DNA from: Candidatus Latescibacterota bacterium
GTDB taxonomy: Bacteria; JAAXHH01
Length of the DNA stretch: 51,228 bases
Direction: 5' to 3'
Assembly: GCA_022823465.1 (NCBI GenBank)
Contig: JAJEHX010000036.1
Location: 1-51,228, forward strand
The stretch's first letter is position 1. Each line of letters opens with the position of its first letter. Positions 2,675 through 16,737 of the stretch are shown piece after piece. The translations under genes were made by a program, and so were the position numbers. A model generated the notes under the pieces. It did no database searches. It had not been told where the DNA came from and saw only the letters and a program-made list of their open reading frames with translations.

Positions 2675-2845
2675 ATGAAAGTGTTAATCAAACCGAGAGT
2701 TGAAGTAAACGAAGAAGGCTTGAACGTCGAAGAAGATGCAGAAGCAATCGCTCTGTGTGATTTGTGGTTATGTCAGCCCGTTTGGTGTGATCTGTGGGAA
2801 TGCAATATTGCAGAAGACAAGTCAGAGGACGATGTATTGTTCTGA
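2675..2845 (+). CDS. RiPP precursor peptide with periodic Cys/Trp core
   Basis: A 56-residue peptide with a strong ribosome site (GAAAGGAGAG, five bases before the ATG). Residues 1-27 form an acidic leader rich in Glu and Asp. The core, residues 28-43, is CDLWLCQPVWCDLWEC: Cys28, Cys33, Cys38 and Cys43 lie exactly five residues apart, Trp sits at 31, 37 and 41, and CDLWxC occurs twice. An acidic tail of 13 residues follows. Size, leader-core layout and a radical SAM/SPASM gene 123 bases downstream fit a RiPP precursor. Likely modifications are radical-made thioether or carbon-carbon links at Cys and Trp, or Cys glycosylation; the chemistry cannot be read from sequence. The gene sits inside a 25-bp inverted repeat. 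I recognise no known precursor family. Confidence 0.8.
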   Translation: MKVLIKPRVEVNEEGLNVEEDAEAIALCDLWLCQPVWCDLWECNIAEDKSEDDVLF

Positions 2846-4635: not shown

Positions 4636-7065
4636 ATGTTCTACACCCATCTGACACACTCGGTACGTTGGATTAACCGTAACAGGACGTATTCTACATT
4701 GAACGTCTTGGGACTTGCGCTCGGTTTCGGTTCAGTGCTGATCATTGGCCTGTATACCTACCAGAATATACAGTTCGATAAGTTTCATACGAAAGGAGAT
4801 CGGATTTACCGGACCATACTCCAGGTCCAATTGCAAGAATCGGATCCCTACTTCATAAGTGGCGTAATGTCTCCTATCGGCCCGTTGCTCAAAGACGAGC
4901 TTCCCGAAGTGACCGACTATGCCCGATTGCGAAGTGCCGCAGCATCGGAGAAGATGTTCATACAGGCCGATAGGGATTTGTTTGAAATCGAGCAGTCGTT
5001 TTATGCGGACCCGCAGATACTGAGCATATTTGATTTCGAACTCGTACAGGGCAGGTCGGATGATCTGCTGAAATCCCCTTTCACGGCGGTAATGACCACG
5101 ACGCTGGCTCAACGGGTTTTCGGCGGGCAGAACCCCGTCGGCAAGGCAATTCAGTGGCACAATGACGTTTACACGGTAGAAGGTGTCGTGGAAACGCCGC
5201 CCTGGAATTCATCGATTCAATTCGAACTCCTGATCTCTTATTCGACCGTTCAGTCTCATACGACCGATCTGGAACGGGGATGGAACGGTGGAAATACCTA
5301 TACCTACCTTCTTCTTCAAGGTGATTCGGAAACATCCGGGATTGAATCCAAGGCCCTCTCGTTGGTCCAAGACCGCGGCCGGAGCGGGTTGGGAGCCGGT
5401 GTCACCGAGTTCGTGCTGCAGCCCCTTGCCGAGGTCCATCTGCATTCGGCGCGTATCGGCGGGGAAGATCAGGCCCGGTGGGTCAATTGGAACAAAGGCG
5501 ACATCGAGGATATCAGGCAATTGGCCGCCATCGCGGCGCTGGTCCTCATCGTATCGACGCTGAATTTGATCAATCTGTCTGCGTCCAAGCTCACGTCCCG
5601 GTTCAGGGAGATGGGCGTGCGGGCGGCTTTAGGCGCCGACCGCGTACAGCTCGTTCTTCCGACGGTTGCCGAAACCGTCATCGTCTACGCGTGCGCGCTG
5701 ATCGGTACCTTTTCCTTGATGTACCTGGTGATCTCGATCCTGAGCAACATGGATCTAATCGTGATAAAACCGGAATTGTTTGCATTGGCGGATTACGTCG
5801 TCATTGCAGGTGCCTCTGTTTGCATAGTGGTCGTCCACAGCGCCGTTATCAGTCTCTCTTCGTCATGGAAACTATGGTTCCAAAAAACGGCCGCTCTACT
5901 TCAGCCGGCCGATACGGCAACCCACAGAAAATCCGTTCAATACACATTCATCTTTGTCCAGACGACGATATGGACGCTACTGGTGACGTGCGCGATATTC
6001 GTCGTTGAACAGGCCCGGTACATGGAGGGGGAAGAGATCGGATTCGAAAAACGGGATGTCATGCTCTTGCCCATCGGCACTGACGTCGACTACCGAACCG
6101 CCAGGCAAGAGTTTGGCAAATTCGCCGGCGTTGCCGAAACAGCCGCGTCGGGATGGGAGTTTGGCGGCACGACCCAGATGTACATGAATATGAGATTCGG
6201 GGACCGCGAGGAACAACCGCAGGTACACCTGTTGCCGGTCGACAGCGACTTCATGGGGCTGTACGGCCTGAGCGTCACGGAAGGACGCGCGTTTTCTTCT
6301 TCCGGCTCTGAGAATCCGCTGGAGTTCGTCGTGAACCGTAGTTTTGTCCGGCAAATGGGATGGCAGGACCCGATCGGCCAACAGATGGGATTCCCTTTTT
6401 CGCGTGAATTCGGACGGGTCGTCGGCGTGATCGACGATTTTCACTGGACGTCGTTGCACAACCCAATCGGACCTCTTGCGATGTATCTCGGCCAGATACC
6501 GCCCCGGTTCTTCTTCCTGCCGACGGAACTTCCCATGTTGTCGGTCAAGCTGAATCCCGGCACGCGGACGCAAACGATTAGTGACGTGGCCGGGGCGTGG
6601 CAGGAACTGATCCCGCAGCGGCCCTTCACCTATTCATTCATCGAAGATAATTTCACCGATCTGTATCAGTCCGAATTCAGGACAAGCAAGATAACGGGCA
6701 TTTTCTCTCTGATAACGGTCCTCATTACCTGTATCGGATTGTTCAGCGTGACCAGAATAGCGGTAATCCGCCGGATGAAGGAAATAGGCGTCCGCAAGGT
6801 CCTGGGGGCCTCGTTTTTGAACGTGACCTGGTTGTTGCTGCGCGACTTCGTTGCGCTCGTCGGGGTCTCGGTCGCAGTCGCCTGGACGATAGCCTACTAT
6901 CTGCTCAATCAGTGGGTCCAGGATTTTGCCTACAGAATCGAGCTGGAACCGGTCACTTTCCTGGCGGCAGGAGTGAGTACGCTCGCCATCGTTGTATTGA
7001 CCGCTTTCTATCATGTATTGCCTGCTTCCTATGCCGACCCGGTGGATATACTGCGAAGCGAGTAG
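4636..7065 (+). CDS. FtsX/MacB-type ABC transporter permease (double unit)
   Basis: An 809-residue permease of the MacB/FtsX kind: a first membrane helix near residues 20-42, a periplasmic MacB-like core domain, an FtsX domain near 300-415 (motif FREMGVRAALGA), a second helix plus periplasmic domain, and a second FtsX domain near 690-800 (RRMKEIGVRKVLGA). Such proteins work with an ATPase and often a HlyD-type adaptor to move peptides or lipids from the periplasm, or give resistance to them. GGGAGG lies ahead of the ATG. Base composition is visibly richer in G+C than the genes on both sides, closer to the main genome. The likely ATPase and adaptor partners lie at 16063 and 14577, beyond the biosynthetic genes. 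Confidence 0.9.
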   Translation: MFYTHLTHSVRWINRNRTYSTLNVLGLALGFGSVLIIGLYTYQNIQFDKFHTKGDRIYRTILQVQLQESDPYFISGVMSPIGPLLKDELPEVTDYARLRSAAASEKMFIQADRDLFEIEQSFYADPQILSIFDFELVQGRSDDLLKSPFTAVMTTTLAQRVFGGQNPVGKAIQWHNDVYTVEGVVETPPWNSSIQFELLISYSTVQSHTTDLERGWNGGNTYTYLLLQGDSETSGIESKALSLVQDRGRSGLGAGVTEFVLQPLAEVHLHSARIGGEDQARWVNWNKGDIEDIRQLAAIAALVLIVSTLNLINLSASKLTSRFREMGVRAALGADRVQLVLPTVAETVIVYACALIGTFSLMYLVISILSNMDLIVIKPELFALADYVVIAGASVCIVVVHSAVISLSSSWKLWFQKTAALLQPADTATHRKSVQYTFIFVQTTIWTLLVTCAIFVVEQARYMEGEEIGFEKRDVMLLPIGTDVDYRTARQEFGKFAGVAETAASGWEFGGTTQMYMNMRFGDREEQPQVHLLPVDSDFMGLYGLSVTEGRAFSSSGSENPLEFVVNRSFVRQMGWQDPIGQQMGFPFSREFGRVVGVIDDFHWTSLHNPIGPLAMYLGQIPPRFFFLPTELPMLSVKLNPGTRTQTISDVAGAWQELIPQRPFTYSFIEDNFTDLYQSEFRTSKITGIFSLITVLITCIGLFSVTRIAVIRRMKEIGVRKVLGASFLNVTWLLLRDFVALVGVSVAVAWTIAYYLLNQWVQDFAYRIELEPVTFLAAGVSTLAIVVLTAFYHVLPASYADPVDILRSE

Positions 7066-7129: not shown

Positions 7130-9025
7130 ATGAGAATCGCAGTGGTGGATAGTGGAATTGATATGGATCATCCACGTCTAAAACACATCCAGTGTTTTGG
7201 AGTTTCCTTGATTCAAGACGAACAAAAGCGTATTACCGTTTGCGAGGACTATCAGGACCGTCTGGGACATGGAACTGCATCCGCCGCAATCATCTATAAG
7301 TTTTGCCACGAGGCGGAATATGTAGCCGTTAAAATATTCCAGAATGAACTGATTACATCAGAGAGTTTGTTATGTAGAGCTATTTCATGGTGTATCGAAA
7401 ACTCAGTTGATATTGTAAATCTTTCTCTTGGTATTCTCACTAACTCGCCCTCCGCAGAACTGTTACGTCTATGTAATGAAGCCTATGATCGAAACATTGT
7501 AGTAGTTGCTGCTGCCCATCACATTTCCAATAGTGAATGTTACCCCGCCTACTATCCATCAACCTTCGGTGTCACTTGGGGTAATGTCCCTGATTTCAGA
7601 AGATATGGTTACATACCGGATTCACCTGTCGAGTTTGTCGCGAAAGGTACAATTCAACGTGTGCCAACGATAAACGGTGGATACCGAATACAAAGTGGCA
7701 CTAGCCTCGCTTGCGCCTATTTTGCGGGGATTATCGCGGCAACCCTCGAATCACATAATAAAATGAACGCGGCTTCTTTAAAAAAGCACCTAGTTAACAA
7801 CGCAGACCGCAATATCAAACCTATACAGTTTGGAAGACCGCCCAAAAACGACTTCCCCTCGGTACGTAGTAGTGATTTGGATACCGTACGAAAACGGGTG
7901 TTTCGTAACATAAAGGAGCAAAACTGGGCCGGGAGACTCGGGATATTCCCCGCTAGTGAGAAAGAAATGCGAGCGTTTGTCGAATTGCCTGACTATACCT
8001 CGTTTCCGGTCAGCAAGTATCTGGACTATCCTAGAAATGTTGATTTCAGGAAACCTTCAGAATCAAAAAAAGACATGAACTTGACCCCGGCAACATATCT
8101 AAATTCGGATACCACAGAAGGTTTCGACACGTTGGTCTTGGGATACTACTCGGATCAGATGTTTGAATCGAACGTTAGATTTGGCCGCTCCTTGGTAGAT
8201 AGGTGCCTGATGGAGAATAAAAACATCTTTGCATTTGACTCTCGCTTACAATCAGAATTGAAAGAACATACGCGTAACCACCTTTACAACGGGAGTATAC
8301 ACGTACCCGGCATCTCTCGGGAACTGTTTGATGATGTTATGAAGTTCAGATATCTACCTCCAGTTGGTATACCTGTTTTAGGGGTGATCGGTACAAGTAA
8401 TCGACAAGGTAAGTTCACGACGCAACTTCGTATTAAGAGAATTATGGAAAACGCAGGGTACGAAATATCATATTTGTCTTCTGAGCCACAAGGTGAACTT
8501 TTTGGTGCGAACATGACTTTCCCTTATGGCTATCAGTCTGCGGTGCATATCGAACAGGAAAAGTGGCAGTATTTCCTGCGCACATATATGAAAGGAGTAG
8601 CTGATTTTCTGCATCCACATGTGATTCTGACCGGCACGCAAGGAACTACTATTCCACGCGGAAACAGAGATTTAATCATTGGGAACGAGACCGACACGCT
8701 GAATTTCTTGATTGGGATAATGCCTGATCGTTTTATCTGCGCGATCAATCCTCAAGACTCGATTGGGTACATACGCAACGTCTGTAAGGTCGTTAGTATA
8801 TTCTGCAAGGCAAGTCCCATCTTCTTTGTGATGACTCCTTGGGAACGTGTTTTCAAGAGAACCGAGACCGGACAAACTGTTGCTCAACACCGAACTCTGG
8901 ACGAAGACGAAAAAAAACACTGTCAAAGGAGATTTGAAGAAGCTCTGGACAGACCGGTCATAGATATCATGGATCACGAAAATGATGGTTTGATTCTGCG
9001 TGCTATAGAGGCTGAATTCTCATAA
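7130..9025 (+). CDS. cytoplasmic subtilase (S8) fused to a DUF1611-like P-loop domain
   Basis: The 631-residue product begins directly with the subtilase Asp motif (MRIAVVDSGID), so it has neither signal nor propeptide and should act in the cytoplasm. The triad is Asp7, His47 (GHGTASA) and Ser192 (SGTSLACAYFAG). The usual oxyanion-hole Asn in AAGN seems replaced by His130 (VAAAHHIS). Residues about 330-631 resemble DUF1611: an N-terminal Rossmann-like part, then a nucleotide-binding loop GTSNRQGKFT (421-430). To my knowledge a characterised DUF1611 protein, DgcN, is a D-glutamate N-acetyltransferase, so this half may transfer an acyl group or bind a nucleotide. In context the subtilase is the best candidate for leader removal, because the ABC exporter has no peptidase domain. 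The gene is AT-rich and 16 bases from the ACP gene. Confidence 0.8.
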   Translation: MRIAVVDSGIDMDHPRLKHIQCFGVSLIQDEQKRITVCEDYQDRLGHGTASAAIIYKFCHEAEYVAVKIFQNELITSESLLCRAISWCIENSVDIVNLSLGILTNSPSAELLRLCNEAYDRNIVVVAAAHHISNSECYPAYYPSTFGVTWGNVPDFRRYGYIPDSPVEFVAKGTIQRVPTINGGYRIQSGTSLACAYFAGIIAATLESHNKMNAASLKKHLVNNADRNIKPIQFGRPPKNDFPSVRSSDLDTVRKRVFRNIKEQNWAGRLGIFPASEKEMRAFVELPDYTSFPVSKYLDYPRNVDFRKPSESKKDMNLTPATYLNSDTTEGFDTLVLGYYSDQMFESNVRFGRSLVDRCLMENKNIFAFDSRLQSELKEHTRNHLYNGSIHVPGISRELFDDVMKFRYLPPVGIPVLGVIGTSNRQGKFTTQLRIKRIMENAGYEISYLSSEPQGELFGANMTFPYGYQSAVHIEQEKWQYFLRTYMKGVADFLHPHVILTGTQGTTIPRGNRDLIIGNETDTLNFLIGIMPDRFICAINPQDSIGYIRNVCKVVSIFCKASPIFFVMTPWERVFKRTETGQTVAQHRTLDEDEKKHCQRRFEEALDRPVIDIMDHENDGLILRAIEAEFS

Positions 9026-9041
9026 GAAAGTAAATGACATC

Positions 9042-9326
9042 ATGACAAAAAACGAAATCAAAACAAACCTGTACGAGCTTACCGATACGTTTCTCGATGG
9101 AACCTTTGAGGTCTCACGAGAAGATCAAGAAACTGTGGTTCTCAATCATCTTGCAAGTGATTCGATACAGGCGATAGAATTTGTTCTACTTATCGAATCG
9201 GAATTCGAAATCGAGTTAAATGATGAAGATATCAACGAAGAGTTTTTTTCGAACTTCGATTATATGGCCGGGCTCGTTCTCGAGCAGTTGAATAGCCGGA
9301 ATCAAAGAGGGTCTGATGGTACATAG
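9042..9326 (+). CDS. acyl carrier protein
   Basis: A 94-residue acidic helical protein with the carrier motif DSIQAIEFV; Ser41 is the expected phosphopantetheine site. It overlaps the exporter gene by 11 bases, so the two are probably translationally coupled. Carrier proteins of this sort hold an acyl or aminoacyl group as a thioester for transfer. The BtrH-like domain two genes on is the natural partner: in butirosin synthesis BtrH takes an acyl group from the carrier BtrI. No ligase or adenylation gene that would load the carrier, and no phosphopantetheinyl transferase, is visible in the window. This is unlikely to be the fatty-acid ACP, since no fab genes are near. Confidence 0.85.
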   Translation: MTKNEIKTNLYELTDTFLDGTFEVSREDQETVVLNHLASDSIQAIEFVLLIESEFEIELNDEDINEEFFSNFDYMAGLVLEQLNSRNQRGSDGT

Positions 9327-10980
9327 CAAAGAGTTGAAATCATTACTCATACCCAGGGCACTTATTGAAAATGTCTATCACGTGATAGGATTTTGCTGCG
9401 TTGCAGCGGTTCTAGTCATATTAAACATCATCAAACCGCTGATTTTCTCTAGGATAATCGATATAGGGCTTGTCGCCCGAGATTGGTCATTTATCAAGGA
9501 ACAGTGTCTGTACTTTGCTGGAATAGCTGTTCTGATTGCTACAGCGTCATTTTGCCAGGGGGTACTGGCCTCTGTAATATCCAATCGTGTCGGAGTAATC
9601 GCCAAAAAAGCCGTCACGGAAAAACTGTATAAACTGGGGTATGGCTTTTACCAGAAGTTTGGAACCGGTGACGTCCTCGCAAGAGTTGATGGGGATACCG
9701 ATCAAATTCGAAATTTCCTCATGACCATCTTATACTATTCTATGACTAGTTTGCTAGGATTCATTGCCGCTGTAGTATTTGTTGGCTATGTGGAGTGGAG
9801 AATGTTAGTCGCAAGTTTTGTAATTGTACCGTTCGTTGGATTGCGGATGTACGCGTTCAGAAATGTTATGCTAAACTCCAACCTGAGGGTATCTGAAGAC
9901 CGTGCAACGAGTATTGAACAGATGACATCAGGCATTCAGAACATAATACATCTCCGGCAAATCAACCTCGACGCATGGTCGCTTGATAAGATAAAAAAGG
10001 GGTTTCAAGCGTTAAAACGGTCATCGATAATCAGAGACAGTTGGATGCAAGGTGGAGATGCCGTCACCATGCTGCTTATGGCGATCGGGTATACCATTAC
10101 TATCGGCTATGGTGGACTGTTGGTAGTAGAGGGAAGTCTGAGCGTGGGATATTTGTTTGCGTTTCTAACGTTGCGAGATCGTTTCAATGCACCGGTTTAC
10201 TTCATTACGCAATCTTACCAAAGCTATCTGGCGGCTAAAGCATCACTACAACGTATTTCTGTATTCTACGAGAATGAAGAGGAGGATGGAATTTCTCAAT
10301 CATCAAAAATGAATGGTTCGCTGAAATTCGATCATGTGGAGTACAGGAATTGTGTCTTTCGCTACAATGGCCAAAGCCCCTGTTTGGAAGTTAACGCGAT
10401 CTTCAATACTGGTTGGAATACTATCTATGGAAACAATGGAACGGGAAAAACTACGGTGCTAAGATTGCTGTTAAAGTTGATAAAACCTGGTGAAGGCAAA
10501 ATACTAGTTGATGATACCGACATAGCAAGATTCAACAATCAGGAATGGCGGCATTGCATAAGTGCCATGCCTTCAGACACCTACCTCTTTAGTGGCACCA
10601 TTCGTGAGAACATCCGGCTATTTGATGATACCATTAGCGATCACGAAATCATCCACATTCTAAATGACCTGGGCATTGAAGAAGACGCGCTGGAAGGAAA
10701 TGCAGGCGTAGATCTCGTTGTATCTGATGGCGGAAGAAACGTATCTGATGGGCAACGCCAGAAAATAGCACTTGCACGGGTACTGGTTCGCAATTCCCCG
10801 ATAATTGTTCTTGACGAGCCTTTTTCTCACTTTGATGGGCCATCTAAGCAATCGATTCAATACTACCTGAAACGAAGATTAACAGACAAAATCGTCATCT
10901 GTGCATCGCACGATGATGTTACAGAAATAACCGATCACGCATTCGTGATTAAAAATGGGAATCTTGTAAACATATCATGA
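9316..10980 (+). CDS. ABC exporter, fused membrane and ATPase domains
   Basis: A 554-residue half-transporter: six-helix exporter membrane domain (about 1-310) followed by an ATPase. Visible motifs are Walker A GNNGTGKTT (from Gly372), a variant signature VSDGQRQK (from Val476), Walker B IIVLDEP and H-loop SHDD. There is no N-terminal C39 peptidase, so any leader must be removed by another enzyme. It probably works as a homodimer in the inner membrane and exports the finished peptide. It overlaps the ACP gene by 11 bases and the next gene by four (ATGA), which indicates one operon. Confidence 0.9.
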   Translation: MVHSKELKSLLIPRALIENVYHVIGFCCVAAVLVILNIIKPLIFSRIIDIGLVARDWSFIKEQCLYFAGIAVLIATASFCQGVLASVISNRVGVIAKKAVTEKLYKLGYGFYQKFGTGDVLARVDGDTDQIRNFLMTILYYSMTSLLGFIAAVVFVGYVEWRMLVASFVIVPFVGLRMYAFRNVMLNSNLRVSEDRATSIEQMTSGIQNIIHLRQINLDAWSLDKIKKGFQALKRSSIIRDSWMQGGDAVTMLLMAIGYTITIGYGGLLVVEGSLSVGYLFAFLTLRDRFNAPVYFITQSYQSYLAAKASLQRISVFYENEEEDGISQSSKMNGSLKFDHVEYRNCVFRYNGQSPCLEVNAIFNTGWNTIYGNNGTGKTTVLRLLLKLIKPGEGKILVDDTDIARFNNQEWRHCISAMPSDTYLFSGTIRENIRLFDDTISDHEIIHILNDLGIEEDALEGNAGVDLVVSDGGRNVSDGQRQKIALARVLVRNSPIIVLDEPFSHFDGPSKQSIQYYLKRRLTDKIVICASHDDVTEITDHAFVIKNGNLVNIS

Positions 10981-13295
10981 AAAAACAGATCCCTGTTCTA
11001 GAACCTCCTGTTACTTCTTACCTGTTCTACATGTACCCGCTGTCGGTCATTCGTCCGCACATGGCGTTTTCACCGTGGATATGCAGTAATTACCTCCAGC
11101 TATACCATTACAACGACCGGGATCTGAAATTCTACGTCAGCCCGTTTTCACCGAAAGGCGGAAAGAAAAACTCATATTTCGTCGTTTGCCCGTTCTTAGA
11201 GATCCAAAGCCTGGAACAAAGCATGATCACGCGGAGGCGTGACGATATCATACAATTCGTCATGAAGAGTCTTGATGAAGATTGGCACGTGCAATTGGAC
11301 GTTGATTACTTCCATTTGCCTTCTACGGCGCCATACAAGCAATTCCATTATCTGCATGAAGTACTGGTATCGGGATATGACGACAATAGCAAGACGTTTG
11401 AAATTTCCGGTTACGATAGATTATGGAAGTATCAAAAATCAACGATAACGTTCAGCGACCTCTTTGAAGCCGTAATAGATAAGACAGCGAACGATAGCAC
11501 CTATCCTGCAGACCAATTAGATGAAAGCCCCAAGGCCTTCTTATACAGGACCGATCACAATAGAAAGTGCGATATCGATATCAGGCAAATGTATGAATTG
11601 CTCTCGGATTATCTGGAATCAGCGAACACGGCTGAGAAGTATCGTATGCTGTATGTTCCTCAAGAGGATGGGCTTTGGGGAGTATCCGTGTATTCCTACC
11701 TGATAGAATTACTGGATCAATGTCGTTCATTGGATACCCTCACCATTCCTCTACGTGTTCTGTGGGAACATAAGAGAATCATGGCCGAGCGGATCCGGTA
11801 TCTGGAAGAGCATGGTTACATTGATTCCGGCTATCGCATTTTCGAAGAGTATTCAGAAGTAACAAGAATGGCGAACCAAGTGAGATGGCTCCTTCTTAAA
11901 TGCCTCATGAAGCGGAAAGTATCATTGGTAAGGAAAGCCAGCGACACCTTGCATGATATTGCGGAGCGCGAGTACAGGGTATTGAGTAATCTCAGGAACC
12001 TACTCGAAGACTGCAACTCGGCACCTGGTAAGGGGTCAACTCCTTACTTCTCGTACTCCGACATGAAAAGGTCGCCTCACTATGCGAGTTGTAATGATCC
12101 GATCACGGCGCGTTCTTCAGAATCATCTACTGAACATGCGGCCACCTTAACTCAGCCAACCCATAGCATCAACTTCGGAGTTGACTCCCTGGAACATCAT
12201 CGGGAACGCTCCCTTCGACAGCTTGTCCAGAGAGATGTATATCAACCGTCTTACGAAGATCTGTCCAATTCTGTCAAACAGATACTCCATTATACCCAAT
12301 GCGGTAAGGTAAAAGTGCTGATGCCACTAAGAGAGTTGAAAGGCGATGGAGCCATTATCGTATCGGAGATTCTGCAGGTCCTTCGACAGCACGTTGGCGT
12401 ATCCAACGTTTTTGTCGTTGACAATGGGATCCATCCACAGATCGCCCGAGAGATCGCTGACAGTCGAGTAACGGTGATCACCGAGTCCATGATACGACAA
12501 CGGTTGGACTGGGATCGATTAATGCGTCTTATGAACCTTCCCGATATCCAATGCGGTAAAGGATATGCCATTACACTAGGCATTGCATACCTGGCCATTA
12601 ATGGACTCATGGATGATGACGATTGGCTTGTCCAGTGTGACGGCGATATCGCGGAATTCAGACAGTTCCAACTGATGCCGCATCTGTTCTATCCGGTCAC
12701 TGCGGAACCTTATCAATCCTGGGAATATCTGAAAATTGCACAAATCCAAAGAAACAATGAGACGGTCAAAGCAGGGATCAACGGTTTGGCGACTTACTTC
12801 AAACTTGCACAGAACGCTTCCGTTTCGCACATGAATCAGCAACGATTTACCGCGCAGGAGATTTACGAAGCCTGTATTCATCACATCTGGATGCTGACCG
12901 GGCAATTCGCGCTAAGGTGGCGGCATGCGGTAAACAGAATGATTGCGGCAGGATATTGCGATGAGACCCTTGCCAGTGCGCAACACGGTTGGCGCAGACT
13001 TGCTCAGATTGTAAATCCCAATCCGTGTATGGACCGGGCGAATTCGAAACAAAAAGAAGATTGCATGATGACGAGAATCTTACAGTTCATTAACGCGCTA
13101 ACCGTTTTTGGGCAATCGGTCAGAACACCCTGGTCTTTGGAAATGATCAGAGAGTTTAACAATGGTGTAGTCCCGGGAGTGGATTCCATAGTCAGAATTC
13201 CAGATAAGAACGGTCCCCTGTGCGTTGATGATATCGAAATGGATCGTGTTTTCCCATCCGTTCAAACCATGTTGGATAACGACCTGTTGTCATAA
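10977..13295 (+). CDS. BtrH-like acyltransferase domain fused to a GT-A glycosyltransferase domain
   Basis: A 772-residue two-part protein. Residues about 1-360 resemble the butirosin BtrH N-terminal family: VDYFHLP, the HEVLVSGYDD core and the helical EHKRIMAERIRYLEEHG region. Such domains have a cysteine-peptidase-like fold and can move acyl groups from a carrier protein. Residues about 430-772 look like a GT-A sugar-nucleotide transferase: KVLMPLRELKGDGAIIV, a GKG segment and QCDGDI with Asp555 and Asp557 as a DxD-type metal site. It most resembles GT2/GT81 enzymes. With the ACP next door, the fusion suggests that a sugar is transferred and acylated, or that peptide and sugar are handled by one enzyme. 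The four-base overlap with the exporter gene supports an operon. Domain assignments are from memory of the families. Confidence 0.72.
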   Translation: MKKQIPVLEPPVTSYLFYMYPLSVIRPHMAFSPWICSNYLQLYHYNDRDLKFYVSPFSPKGGKKNSYFVVCPFLEIQSLEQSMITRRRDDIIQFVMKSLDEDWHVQLDVDYFHLPSTAPYKQFHYLHEVLVSGYDDNSKTFEISGYDRLWKYQKSTITFSDLFEAVIDKTANDSTYPADQLDESPKAFLYRTDHNRKCDIDIRQMYELLSDYLESANTAEKYRMLYVPQEDGLWGVSVYSYLIELLDQCRSLDTLTIPLRVLWEHKRIMAERIRYLEEHGYIDSGYRIFEEYSEVTRMANQVRWLLLKCLMKRKVSLVRKASDTLHDIAEREYRVLSNLRNLLEDCNSAPGKGSTPYFSYSDMKRSPHYASCNDPITARSSESSTEHAATLTQPTHSINFGVDSLEHHRERSLRQLVQRDVYQPSYEDLSNSVKQILHYTQCGKVKVLMPLRELKGDGAIIVSEILQVLRQHVGVSNVFVVDNGIHPQIAREIADSRVTVITESMIRQRLDWDRLMRLMNLPDIQCGKGYAITLGIAYLAINGLMDDDDWLVQCDGDIAEFRQFQLMPHLFYPVTAEPYQSWEYLKIAQIQRNNETVKAGINGLATYFKLAQNASVSHMNQQRFTAQEIYEACIHHIWMLTGQFALRWRHAVNRMIAAGYCDETLASAQHGWRRLAQIVNPNPCMDRANSKQKEDCMMTRILQFINALTVFGQSVRTPWSLEMIREFNNGVVPGVDSIVRIPDKNGPLCVDDIEMDRVFPSVQTMLDNDLLS

Positions 13296-13329
13296 CAGAT
13301 GGTTTTAAATCTCCTTGGTGGATACAGCC

Positions 13330-14502
13330 ATGCATATAGCAGTTATAGGTCACGGATTTTGGCCTCAAGTAGGTGGACTAGAAAGACAAATATACGATTG
13401 TGCCTTAGGCTTCGCCCGTAGAGGTCATAAAGTATCGATATTATCGATCTCAGGTGAAAGCAGTGAGTCCCCTCAAAGAGAGTTGTTAAAAAGCCCTAAT
13501 GCTCATCCCATTGAGGTTTATCGTTTCAAGGTTCCTTCATTCAAACCTGACCGGGATGATCCTCTTCAAGACCTTTCCATCCCTTTGGCATTTTATAAAC
13601 GTTCGGCTTCAGACTGGGCGCAGTTGATACGGTCGGCTGATATCATTTGTACCTTTGGCGTGGTTCCGGGCATAGTGGGAGGAATGATAAAAAACACCTG
13701 TCAGGTACCGCTTGTTGCCGTACTTCCAGGTATTCCAGACAAGTCGAGCCCGGATTTTGAAGAAGTTCTGAAAAGCAAGGCAGATGCCTTCGTCAGCGTC
13801 TCAAGATTCATGCAGGAGAAGGGCAGGGCATTGTATGATCTTGAAATGATCAACATCTACAACGGAGTGGACACCGATTTCTTTAAACCGACACACAAGA
13901 ATATGAAGTATGCCTTTCTTGAAAATGTGTCCGAGGATCTGATCACCAGTCCGGTTCGTCTCGATCCAATGAAAGGTATCCATATACTTATCGAAGCATT
14001 TGATAGGGTACATAGATCTTACGACAAGGCAAAACTGTTGATTACAGGCAATGGTAGCGTGTTTCACGAAATGGGTACGATCAGTCCATATCACGAGTAT
14101 CTGTTGAATATGTCTGAGCGTATGGGACTGGCCGATCATGTAGTTTTTGCGTTAGGTGAAACCTCGAACGAAGATATGCCGGCCCTTTACACTCTGTCTT
14201 CTGTCTGTGTAATGACCAGTCTGAGTGAGGGATTTGGGTTGGGCATAGCGGAAGCGATGGCTTGTGAAACGCCAGTAGTGGCTACGCGGACGGAAGGCAT
14301 GCAGGAAGTTTTCGAGGATGGCATTGGAGGTTACTATGCCGATGTTGGAAACACAGATCAAATCGCAGAATGTATCATCAAGCTGTTGACAGATTCTGAA
14401 CTCAAAACACGTATGGGGAAGGAAGCCAGAGAACATATTCTCAATGCATATTCCCTTAACGCTCAGATAGATGGTTACTTAGACCTGTTTTACTCGTTTT
14501 AA
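13330..14502 (+). CDS. GT4-family glycosyltransferase
   Basis: A retaining GT-B glycosyltransferase of about 390 residues. The N-terminus has the glycine motif GHGFWPQVGGLERQ, typical of GT4. The C-terminal domain has LDPMKGIHILIEAF and SEGFGLGIAEAMACETPVVAT, with the E-x7-E nucleotide-sugar signature. I chose the ATG at 13330, whose product opens with the first strand MHIAVIGHG; a TTG at 13315 would add five residues. It is the last AT-rich gene before the host-like adaptor gene. With the GT-A domain upstream, two sugars may be added to the peptide product; a cell-surface glycan is the alternative. Confidence 0.85.
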   Translation: MHIAVIGHGFWPQVGGLERQIYDCALGFARRGHKVSILSISGESSESPQRELLKSPNAHPIEVYRFKVPSFKPDRDDPLQDLSIPLAFYKRSASDWAQLIRSADIICTFGVVPGIVGGMIKNTCQVPLVAVLPGIPDKSSPDFEEVLKSKADAFVSVSRFMQEKGRALYDLEMINIYNGVDTDFFKPTHKNMKYAFLENVSEDLITSPVRLDPMKGIHILIEAFDRVHRSYDKAKLLITGNGSVFHEMGTISPYHEYLLNMSERMGLADHVVFALGETSNEDMPALYTLSSVCVMTSLSEGFGLGIAEAMACETPVVATRTEGMQEVFEDGIGGYYADVGNTDQIAECIIKLLTDSELKTRMGKEAREHILNAYSLNAQIDGYLDLFYSF

Positions 14503-14576: not shown

Positions 14577-15911
14577 ATGAGCCAACCTACTCAAAACGGC
14601 GAAAACAAAAGTGGGCTCGTGGACATGTTCACGGAGGAGCGGCAACGTGAACAGCACGGCACCATGGACCGCCGTATCGAGAAGAAGCGTTTCACGCCGC
14701 GCCGGATCGCCCTCGGCGGCCTGGCCGCGGCGGTGGTCGCCTTCGGCGTCTATGCGCTGCTCAGCGTCAACCCTTCCTCCCTGAACGTGGAGGCGGCAAA
14801 GCTGACCACGGCCCCGGTGATCCACGGTCCCTTCCTAGAATACATCGTCGAGCAGGGCGCGGTGATGCCGCTTACCACGATCTACCTGGACGCCGTGGAA
14901 GGCGGACGGGTGGAAGAAGTCTTTGTTGAAGAGGGCACGCAGATCGAGGAGGGCACGCCCATCCTGCGCCTGTCCAACGCCGCGCTGCAACTGAGCGTTA
15001 TGCAGCGGGAGGCCGAGTTGTTCCGCGAGGTGAACGAGCTTCGGCAGACGCGGGTTACCATGGAGCAGCGGCGCCTGAACCTGCGCTCTCAACTGGTGGA
15101 ACTGGATTACCAACTGCGCCAGGCCGAACGGGAATACGAGCGCCAGGACGAGATGTTCAAGGCGGACCTGACTTCACGAAAGGAATACGACGAGGCGAAG
15201 GATAACCTCGAATACTACACGCGCAGGCGGGAGGTCACTGTCGAAACGCTGCGCCAGGATTCGCTTTACCAGACGATCCAGATCCAGCAGCTGGAAGAAT
15301 CGATTGACCGGCTGCGGCTCAATCTCGAACTCATCAGGCAGAACCAGGAGAACCTGACGTTGCGCGCGCGGATCACAGGGCTGCTTTCTTCACTCATCGC
15401 CGAGGTGGGGGAGTCGAAACCCGGCGGCGAGCGGCTGGGACAGATCGACGTGGAGGACCAGTTCAAGGTCAGGGCGGCCATCGACGAACATTACATCGCC
15501 CGCATCCAGTCGGGCCAGGCCGGTTCCTTCGATTTCGCCGGGGAGACCTACGACCTGTTGATCCGGCGGGTGTATCCCGAGGTGATCGAGGGGCAGTTTG
15601 AGGCGGACATGGTGTTCCCCGAAGGGATGCCCGAGGGGTTGCGCCGGGGGCAGACGCTGCAGGTTCGGATCGCGCTGGGCGAACTGGCCGACGCCATGCA
15701 GGTGCCCCGGGGCGGTTTCTACCAGAAGACGGGCGGGCGCTGGATCTACGTGCTGGATCCCGAGGGTGAGTTCGCCATTCGGCGGCAGATAAGGCTCGGA
15801 CGGCAGAACAGCCAGTTCTTCGAGGTACTCGAGGGACTCGAAGAGGGCGAGCAGGTCATCACCTCCATGTACGACAACTTCGGCGACATGGAACAGCTGG
15901 TGTTGAAATAG
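14577..15911 (+). CDS. HlyD/MacA-like periplasmic adaptor protein
   Basis: A 444-residue membrane fusion protein: cytoplasmic N-terminus, a single membrane helix at about 46-62, a split lipoyl-like domain (GGRVEEVFVEEGTQIEEGTPIL), a long coiled coil at about 140-265, then beta-barrel and membrane-proximal domains. It bridges an inner-membrane ABC permease and an outer-membrane channel. AAGGAG precedes the ATG. Composition is that of the main genome. The MacB-type ATPase follows at 16063, and the nearest FtsX permease is at 4636, so the export machine appears split by the biosynthetic genes. Confidence 0.9.
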   Translation: MSQPTQNGENKSGLVDMFTEERQREQHGTMDRRIEKKRFTPRRIALGGLAAAVVAFGVYALLSVNPSSLNVEAAKLTTAPVIHGPFLEYIVEQGAVMPLTTIYLDAVEGGRVEEVFVEEGTQIEEGTPILRLSNAALQLSVMQREAELFREVNELRQTRVTMEQRRLNLRSQLVELDYQLRQAEREYERQDEMFKADLTSRKEYDEAKDNLEYYTRRREVTVETLRQDSLYQTIQIQQLEESIDRLRLNLELIRQNQENLTLRARITGLLSSLIAEVGESKPGGERLGQIDVEDQFKVRAAIDEHYIARIQSGQAGSFDFAGETYDLLIRRVYPEVIEGQFEADMVFPEGMPEGLRRGQTLQVRIALGELADAMQVPRGGFYQKTGGRWIYVLDPEGEFAIRRQIRLGRQNSQFFEVLEGLEEGEQVITSMYDNFGDMEQLVLK

Positions 15912-16062: not shown

Positions 16063-16737
16063 ATGATCACGACCCAAAATCTCAAGAAGCTCTACGCGAC
16101 CGAAGAGGTGGAGACCACGGCTTTGAACGACGTGACCATGACCGTGGACGAAGGGGAGTTCGTGGCGGTCATGGGACCGTCGGGATGCGGCAAGTCCACC
16201 CTGCTCAACATCCTCGGACTCCTCGACAACCCCACGGGCGGGGAATACCACTTCGTTGGCGAAGAAGTGTCCGACCACTCCGAGCGGCAACGGGCAAACC
16301 TGCGCAAGAACAACATCGGCTTCGTCTTCCAGAGCTTCAACCTGATCGACGAGCTCACCGTTTACGAGAACATCGAACTGCCCCTGATCTACCTGGGCAC
16401 GTCCAAGACGGATCGCAAGGCACGGGTGGAAGCGGCCATGGAGCACATGCAGATCCCCCACCGGCGGAACCACTTCCCGCAGCAGCTCTCCGGGGGCCAG
16501 CAGCAGCGCGTGGCCGTGGCGCGGGCGGTCATCGGCAATCCCAGGCTGATCCTGGCCGATGAGCCGACCGGTAACCTGGACTCGGCCAACGGTTCGGAGG
16601 TGATGGAACTGCTGACCGGCCTGAACGAGACGGGCACGACCATCATCATGGTGACCCACGACCAGGCGCTGGCCGACCACGCCCACCGCACCATCCGGCT
16701 CTTCGACGGACGCATCGTGAATGAGGCTGCGGCGTAG
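16063..16737 (+). CDS. MacB/LolD-type ABC transporter ATPase
   Basis: A 224-residue ATPase with Walker A GPSGCGKST, Q-loop VFQSFN, signature LSGGQQQR, Walker B LILADEPT and H-loop THD. These are hallmarks of the MacB/LolD/FtsE group that drives FtsX-type permeases. The adaptor gene lies 151 bases upstream. No FtsX permease follows directly; the permease at 4636-7065 is the only visible candidate. A damaged second copy of its 3-prime part lies at 18935-19153. Confidence 0.92.
   Translation: MITTQNLKKLYATEEVETTALNDVTMTVDEGEFVAVMGPSGCGKSTLLNILGLLDNPTGGEYHFVGEEVSDHSERQRANLRKNNIGFVFQSFNLIDELTVYENIELPLIYLGTSKTDRKARVEAAMEHMQIPHRRNHFPQQLSGGQQQRVAVARAVIGNPRLILADEPTGNLDSANGSEVMELLTGLNETGTTIIMVTHDQALADHAHRTIRLFDGRIVNEAAA

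Follow-up and report, generated by a model that had tools for sequence, protein, structure and literature searches.

A candidate four-cysteine DD(I/V)LF-type RiPP precursor beside a radical SAM/SPASM maturase in a Latescibacterota genome

A short open reading frame (ORF) with four Cys at a spacing of five lies next to a radical SAM/SPASM enzyme gene in Candidatus Latescibacterota contig JAJEHX010000036.1, and the entire 51,228 nucleotides of this stretch are referred to here as the window. The locus raises the question of whether the ORF is a genuine precursor gene, which of its regular features matter, and what kind of modified peptide it would yield.

The precursor gene and its relatives

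The ORF, its parts and the two genes that adjoin it are the following.

555-2570, + strand: S41-family peptidase with a signal-peptide-like N-terminus (Pfam PF03572, 1.6e-17), directly upstream of the precursor in four of four loci
2675-2845, + strand: precursor peptide of 56 aa, MKVLIKPRVEVNEEGLNVEEDAEAIALCDLWLCQPVWCDLWECNIAEDKSEDDVLF (translation; alignment with relatives)
2675-2755, + strand: leader, residues 1-27, with the invariant MKVLIKP inside (alignment A2; MKVLIKP codon changes synonymous only)
2756-2803, + strand: core CDLWLCQPVWCDLWEC, residues 28-43, with four Cys that are kept in four of four precursors and Trp that are not
2804-2842, + strand: acidic tail NIAEDKSEDDVLF bearing the DD(I/V)LF mark (C-terminal [DEG][DE][IV]LF in four of four; same mark in PMC12703449)
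2969-4432, + strand: radical SAM/SPASM peptide maturase of 487 aa (Cys motifs; NCBIfam NF052473, 1.1e-111; fold CteB, 5why)

The translation of 2675-2845 agrees exactly with the initial annotation, which had placed Cys at residues 28, 33, 38 and 43 and Trp at residues 31, 37 and 41, and the ORF is a real short-peptide gene. It occurs as a single copy in its genome and a Shine-Dalgarno-like GAAAGGAG precedes its ATG. Across the MKVLIKP stretch, each of four pairwise comparisons shows three to four codon changes, every one of them synonymous, which indicates that the reading frame is under selection. A six-frame scan of the window and loci L022, L023 and L024 for C-x4-C-x4-C-x4-C returned a single match in the window (2756, the precursor), one in L022 (the orthologous peptide) and none in L023 or L024; since only the precursor and its orthologue match, the period-five pattern is not background.

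A search for the maturase gene covered 96 genomes, twelve of them from the window's genus (G000-G011, the window's own included). Apart from the window's genome, three members of its genus have close homologues, G010 with 80% identity and G008 and G011 with 49%. The locus is carried by four of the twelve genomes, which amounts to a patchy distribution. A search of contigs with very specific patterns added one useful locus, L029, again from this genus. Viral contigs gave no match, and plasmids held distant maturases only, with up to about 31% identity.

The order of S41 peptidase, precursor and radical SAM/SPASM maturase genes is constant in all four carriers, and the short ORF between the S41 and maturase genes reads MKVLIKPQVVVNEEDSDVDELEPEAIAMCDLGPCLPLQCTLGACNPLSGDTSDGDILF in L003, MKVLIKPVVLDVEEEQDQDVVAYCDNICGANSKSCSVNTCISNSKDDEVDEILF in L004 and MKVLIKPVDLDFEDDQDQDVVAYCDKACGINNCDKTCGINNGDDEVDDILF in L005. 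Invariant in the four precursors are the MKVLIKP leader, AxCD at the first Cys, the four Cys and a C-terminal [DEG][DE][IV]LF, realized as DDVLF in the window, GDILF in L003, DEILF in L004 and DDILF in L005. The view of the ORF as a RiPP-like precursor adjoining its maturase is thus borne out by adjacency in four of four carriers and by the conserved leader, Cys and tail, and wherever the maturase is retained among the relatives, so are the frame and the four Cys.

The regularity of the core proved less durable. The initial annotation had expected relatives with the maturase to share the Cys spacing, which is 5,5,5 in the window and L003 and is lost in two of the three relatives (4,7,5 in L004 and 4,5,4 in L005). 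Period five is therefore not a constant of the family, and these two spacings rule it out as a family trait. The Trp residues, which had been regarded as a core feature, are all replaced (G, Q, G) in the closest relative, L003, whose maturase is about 79-80% identical, and they are also absent from the L004 and L005 cores. Neither the exact spacing nor the Trp can therefore be essential, and a candidate role of Trp cross-links as an essential feature was rejected for the same reason. What survives of the proposed doubled CDLWxC motif is a doubled C-D-x-x-(x)-C unit, clearly visible in L005 (CDKACGINN-CDKTCGINN), while its Trp is not kept. Likewise, the suggestion that the spacing marks two equivalent units holds in so far as the four Cys form two C-x3/4-C units in all carriers, although their exact spacing changes.

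Strong conservation in the core is confined to the Cys and to the Asp that follows the first of them (alignment A2). No other conserved acceptor residue was found in the four precursors, and for this reason the bond partner cannot be read from the sequence. This variable core is flanked by a conserved leader and a conserved tail, the pattern expected if both ends are removed. It is plausible that neighbouring enzymes would convert the peptide into a cross-linked natural product that has lost both ends.

The maturase and the placement of the peptide

The best NCBIfam model for the window maturase is NF052473 (FlmE/OhkG) with 374 bits at a cut-off of 500, and the scores of all four carriers (374-409 bits) stay below that cut-off. 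The models ranked next describe maturases of Cys-rich peptides, namely TIGR04463, Clo7bot, geopeptide, CefB (5e-37, 127.7 bits; cut-off 600) and PapB (3.5e-33, 115 bits; cut-off 340), and DynA-type models appear among the weaker matches (4e-21). This ranking supports a Cys-modifying maturase. The CxxxCxxC motif (C108/C112/C115) and all seven SPASM Cys (369/389/428/431/437/441/450) are invariant in the four maturases (alignment A1). A two-sequence AlphaFold model, used with its mean pLDDT of 55.7 for the fold class and the shape of the N-terminal domain only, has CteB (5why), TigE and SuiB as its closest solved folds, with EpeE also among the fold matches; by sequence, CteB and SkfB are nearest. 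CteB is a thioether-forming maturase, and both CteB and SuiB bear an N-terminal peptide-binding (RRE) domain. The invariant radical SAM and SPASM Cys and the proximity to the CteB fold support a thioether-forming enzyme. Within the low-confidence model, residues 1-75 are modelled as strands followed by helices (pLDDT about 57-87), and this predicted strand-helix domain appears to be shaped like an RRE.

The C-terminal mark points to a described family. Orphan RiPPs with a DD(I/V)LF motif were introduced through FlmA and OhkA (Pfeiffer et al. 2025, PMC12703449), and the cases studied have Arg residues in the core and a peptide arginase (FlmR/OhkR) nearby; the core, cleavage sites and final products of that family are unknown, and a role of the tail as follower was left open (PMC12703449). 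This system of FlmA/OhkA precursors, FlmE/OhkG maturases and FlmR/OhkR arginases shares with the window locus the C-terminal mark, a precursor near 55 aa and the maturase's best model, whereas the window core has four Cys and no Arg, the phylum is a different one and all model scores stay under their cut-offs. The mark is exact in the window and L005, with near forms in L003 and L004. The precursor model FlmA_fam (NF052472, cut-off 30 bits) spans the L004 peptide from one end to the other (E 0.0043, 17.2 bits, residues 4-54) and matches the L005 peptide with an E-value of 0.037 (14.2 bits); the window and L003 peptides gave no match to it. The curated cut-offs of the Flm/Ohk, Cef, PapB and QhpE models were all missed. 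A search for the peptide arginase PF12640 in the window's own genome and six of its genus gave no match, and no positive control matched either, which leaves this absence unproven. The lack of a detected arginase and of a core Arg suggests a Cys-type variant, and the window peptide probably belongs with the DD(I/V)LF RiPPs in that capacity, although by the curated models it is not a formal member. No true FlmE/OhkG locus above the cut-off was encountered in the genus, in 16 genomes of the phylum, in 384 spread genomes or in 395 genomes of one phylum (that of the SusD-rich G077, probably Bacteroidota). The DD(I/V)LF tail is thus met here behind an Arg-free core with four Cys, in another phylum and beside a secreted peptidase and a QhpE-like protease. 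Such a simpler, apparently arginase-free system would allow direct tests of the maturase reaction and of the fate of the tail.

In the reading that we favour, and to which we assign a moderately better than even chance, the ORF encodes an FlmA-like DD(I/V)LF precursor in which Cys rather than Arg would be modified: the maturase would introduce thioethers, an S8 protease would cut off the leader and an ABC transporter would export the peptide. PapA/PapB ranthipeptides of the freyrasin type share with the window system a radical SAM/SPASM maturase related by profile and the Cys-based rings proposed here; the window peptide differs by lacking a C-x3-D/E array and its maturase reaches 115 of 340 bits. 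PapB accepts Cys-Xn-Asp with n = 0-6 (PMC9413430). Given this tolerance, a conserved C-D pair would still be compatible with PapB-like chemistry, which we take as a lead only.

An alternative that we regard as unlikely, yet as deserving some weight, would have the Cys form plain disulfides or bind a metal while the radical SAM enzyme epimerises, methylates or makes a non-sulfur bond. Consistent with it, no acceptor is conserved, and the reactions of radical SAM/SPASM RiPP enzymes are of several kinds, TigE and EpeE being among the fold matches; against it speak the best-scoring models, which are those of Cys-rich-peptide maturases, and the narrow set of strongly conserved core positions, namely the four Cys and the one Asp that follows the first of them.

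An assignment of precursor and maturase to the Cys-every-fifth type of RiPP, as CefA and CefB respectively, is improbable. CefA/CefB RiPPs (NCBIfam NF038107; Methylomagnum plasmid NZ_AP019784) do share the period-five Cys, seen here in the window and L003, and a related radical SAM/SPASM maturase, recognized by the CefB model with 5e-37. On the Methylomagnum plasmid the annotated CefA adjoins a TIGR04463 maturase, and in L038 (minus strand; genome G237) a Cys-every-fifth peptide, CAADACGWKGCAIQACGANACLAEACVLDMCAADIC, adjoins a maturase related to FlmE/OhkG. However, the window peptide has only four Cys and the period is not genus-wide, being lost in L004 and L005; the 128 of 600 bits for CefB fall far below those for FlmE/OhkG (374), to which the maturase is much closer; and the Methylomagnum CefA consists of many CGADA or CGADA-like pentads with a C-terminus that is not of DD(I/V)LF form. 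As period-five Cys are already known from CefA and L038, the spacing itself is not new. Nothing was found in the literature on CefA chemistry.

Improbable too are Trp C-C or C-O cross-links of the cyclophane, darobactin or dynobactin type, with Cys forming disulfides only: three core Trp, DynA-type maturases among the weaker matches and exporter genes whose best matches are DarC, DarD and (second) DarB would agree with them, but the absence of core Trp from the closest relative, L004 and L005, set against four Cys kept in four of four, leaves a Trp cross-link disfavoured.

Two observations stand beside this placement. Genome G237 encodes many type IX secretion sorting domains, and beside related maturases in L040 and L041 lie short peptides, rich in Cys and containing CxLCSEDPxFCG repeats, that end in DDLL or GDLF and are possible further relatives of the DD(I/V)LF kind.

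Complementary arms around the precursor gene

The precursor and its ribosome-binding site are enclosed in the window by a perfect inverted repeat of 25 nt.

2602-2626, + strand: 5' arm of the enclosing stem, 25 nt, 100% complementary to 2889-2913; counterpart in L003, L004 and L005
2889-2913, + strand: 3' arm of the enclosing stem, 25 nt, complementary to 2602-2626

Complementary arms of about 16-25 bp surround the precursor gene in all four carriers, and their sequences differ while the pairing is kept. The arms measure 17 nt in L005 and 15 nt in L004 (17 with G-U), and L003 has 12 nt and, in addition, a stretch of 16 nt that includes G-U pairs. For comparison, complementarity did not exceed 8 nt in 19 other gene triples, nor 9 nt (10 with G-U) around other Cys-rich precursors of related maturases. 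Energies of duplexes between the two intergenic stretches lie, in the four loci, below those of shuffles (z -6.7, -7.4, -2.0 and -2.9), and folds of the whole regions gave z-values of -7.0, -6.9, -3.4 and -3.6 that no shuffle equalled. Between the window and L003 arms there is one double-sided change (A-U to G-C), and between those of L004 and L005 there is another (C-G to U-A); each comparison also shows two one-sided changes with pairing kept and one terminal pair lost. Arms that have diverged with their pairing preserved through two compensatory changes indicate an RNA stem, and on this comparative ground the arms probably form one. No Rfam family matched the region and no text on stems around RiPP precursor genes was found in the literature.

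The opposing idea that the arms are recombination sites of an invertible segment, which would switch the precursor gene on and off, takes its appeal from a long perfect inverted repeat flanking one small gene. It is very unlikely: the arms diverge between relatives and two base pairs carry changes in both partners; G-U pairs, for which RNA alone has a need, occur in the L003 and L004 stems; the four copies share one orientation; and no second full copy of the arm was found in the window's genome. DNA inversion is accordingly disfavoured by the arms being diverged yet complementary and by their G-U pairs.

An RNA stem would most likely act by setting the precursor message apart from its neighbours through nuclease processing or protection, a role suggested by the window stem, which leaves both ribosome-binding sites outside the paired arms. 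A more specific version can be put forward tentatively. In a Cys-cross-linking branch of the DD(I/V)LF RiPPs, a stem between 5'UTR and 3'UTR would loop out the precursor cistron, and cutting or shielding of this loop might provide an excess of precursor over the S41 peptidase and the maturase. If this were true, a stem kept by compensatory changes despite drift would represent a dedicated RNA device for RiPP precursor supply. Should the covarying arms around the precursor gene be confirmed as RNA, they would give a RiPP operon a novel means of setting precursor levels.

Neighbouring genes, proposed maturation route and locus history

The remaining genes of the locus are listed in their order.

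415-525, + strand: 36-codon ORF, apparent remnant of an S41 start (signal peptide) of the L023/L024 kind, 78% identical to the S41 N-terminus
4636-7065, + strand: MacB/FtsX-type permease, DarB-like (ADOP 6e-65, best; DarB 8e-30, second)
7130-9025, + strand: QhpE-like S8 protease fused to a TIGR04066/DUF1611 P-loop domain (NF049966, 3.8e-40; TIGR04066, 1e-11); four of four loci
9042-9326, + strand: acyl-carrier-like protein (profile match); four of four loci
9316-10980, + strand: ABC exporter without a C39 peptidase domain (PF00664 and PF00005); four of four loci
10977-13295, + strand: protein with a weak BtrH_N match (PF14399, 6e-5, below cut-off); four of four loci
13315-14502, + strand: GT4 glycosyltransferase, found in the window and L022 only
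14577-15911, + strand: DarC-like periplasmic adaptor (NF038010, 5.3e-52, below cut-off)
16063-16737, + strand: DarD-like exporter ATPase (NF038007, 1.7e-82, below cut-off)

For this gene set, a maturation route can be proposed in which the N-terminal domain of the maturase would bind the MKVLIKP leader. The enzyme would then link the sulfur of every Cys to a carbon atom in a residue close by; the resulting thioether rings, each formed with a loss of 2 Da, would be arranged as two repeated C-x3/4-C units. Leader removal by the QhpE-like S8 protease would follow in the cytoplasm, and the cleaved peptide would then leave through the ABC exporter. Trimming of the acidic tail outside the cytoplasm may fall to the secreted S41 peptidase, a role suggested by gene order. 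We infer that the maturase acts on the window peptide, and propose on the same footing which bond it forms, in which order the steps follow, that the tail is removed and that the product is secreted.

The S8 protein carries the DSGID, GHGT and SGTSLA motifs of an Asp-His-Ser triad, invariant in alignment A4, and reaches 137.6 of 165 bits with the QhpE model NF049966; no signal peptide was seen. QhpE removes a leader in the cytoplasm after Cys-Asp/Glu thioethers have formed and before ABC export (PMC7876137), and the likeness to QhpE supports leader cleavage ahead of ABC export in the window system as well. Qhp maturation (QhpD, QhpE, QhpF) similarly joins a radical SAM enzyme, a cytoplasmic subtilisin-like leader protease and an ABC exporter; in contrast, the window precursor is not a QhpC subunit, QhpG and dehydrogenase subunits are missing, and the S8 protease is fused to a TIGR04066-like domain.

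In the S41 protein the CASE nucleophile motif, DLRSNxGG and DxHF are conserved, and it resembles the S41 domains of retinol-binding proteins and carboxyl-terminal proteases. A Ser-Lys dyad is typical of C-terminal processing proteases (S41A). No conserved catalytic Lys in the T-x-G-K-G position was found in the four loci, and a classical tail-specific protease was ruled out by the missing dyad.

A Dar-like three-part exporter is also encoded. Its adaptor and ATPase match DarC and DarD of the darobactin exporter DarBCD best, and DarB is the second-best NCBIfam match of the permease; on the other hand, the scores stay below cut-offs, the best match of the permease is ADOP, and neither precursor nor maturase is of the darobactin kind. 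The MacB-type permease is present in four of four loci and is placed elsewhere in L023/L024.

The upstream border carries traces of rearrangement. DNA at 138-509 is 83-87% identical to L023/L024, a likeness that stops inside their S41 gene start, and from about 900 onward the window resembles L022 instead. Judging by the remnant of an S41 start before a different, complete S41 gene, an exchange of the RiPP module has apparently taken place at the 138-525 site. Further downstream, only residues 1-370 of the BtrH-like protein match L023/L024, its second half being confined to the window and L022. This half (12177-13292) has no Pfam match, and DDDDWLVQCDGD within it looks like a GT-A glycosyltransferase motif.

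The G008 locus differs from the window in two further genes. Directly behind its maturase lies a pentapeptide-repeat protein (L023:7676-8311) that the window lacks; because proteins of this kind can confer self-protection, the product of the G008 locus may be antimicrobial. Where the window has the GT4 enzyme, G008 carries a macrolide-type glycosyltransferase (L023:12964-14214; MGT family, 1.3e-26), for which glycosylation or self-protection is a possible role.
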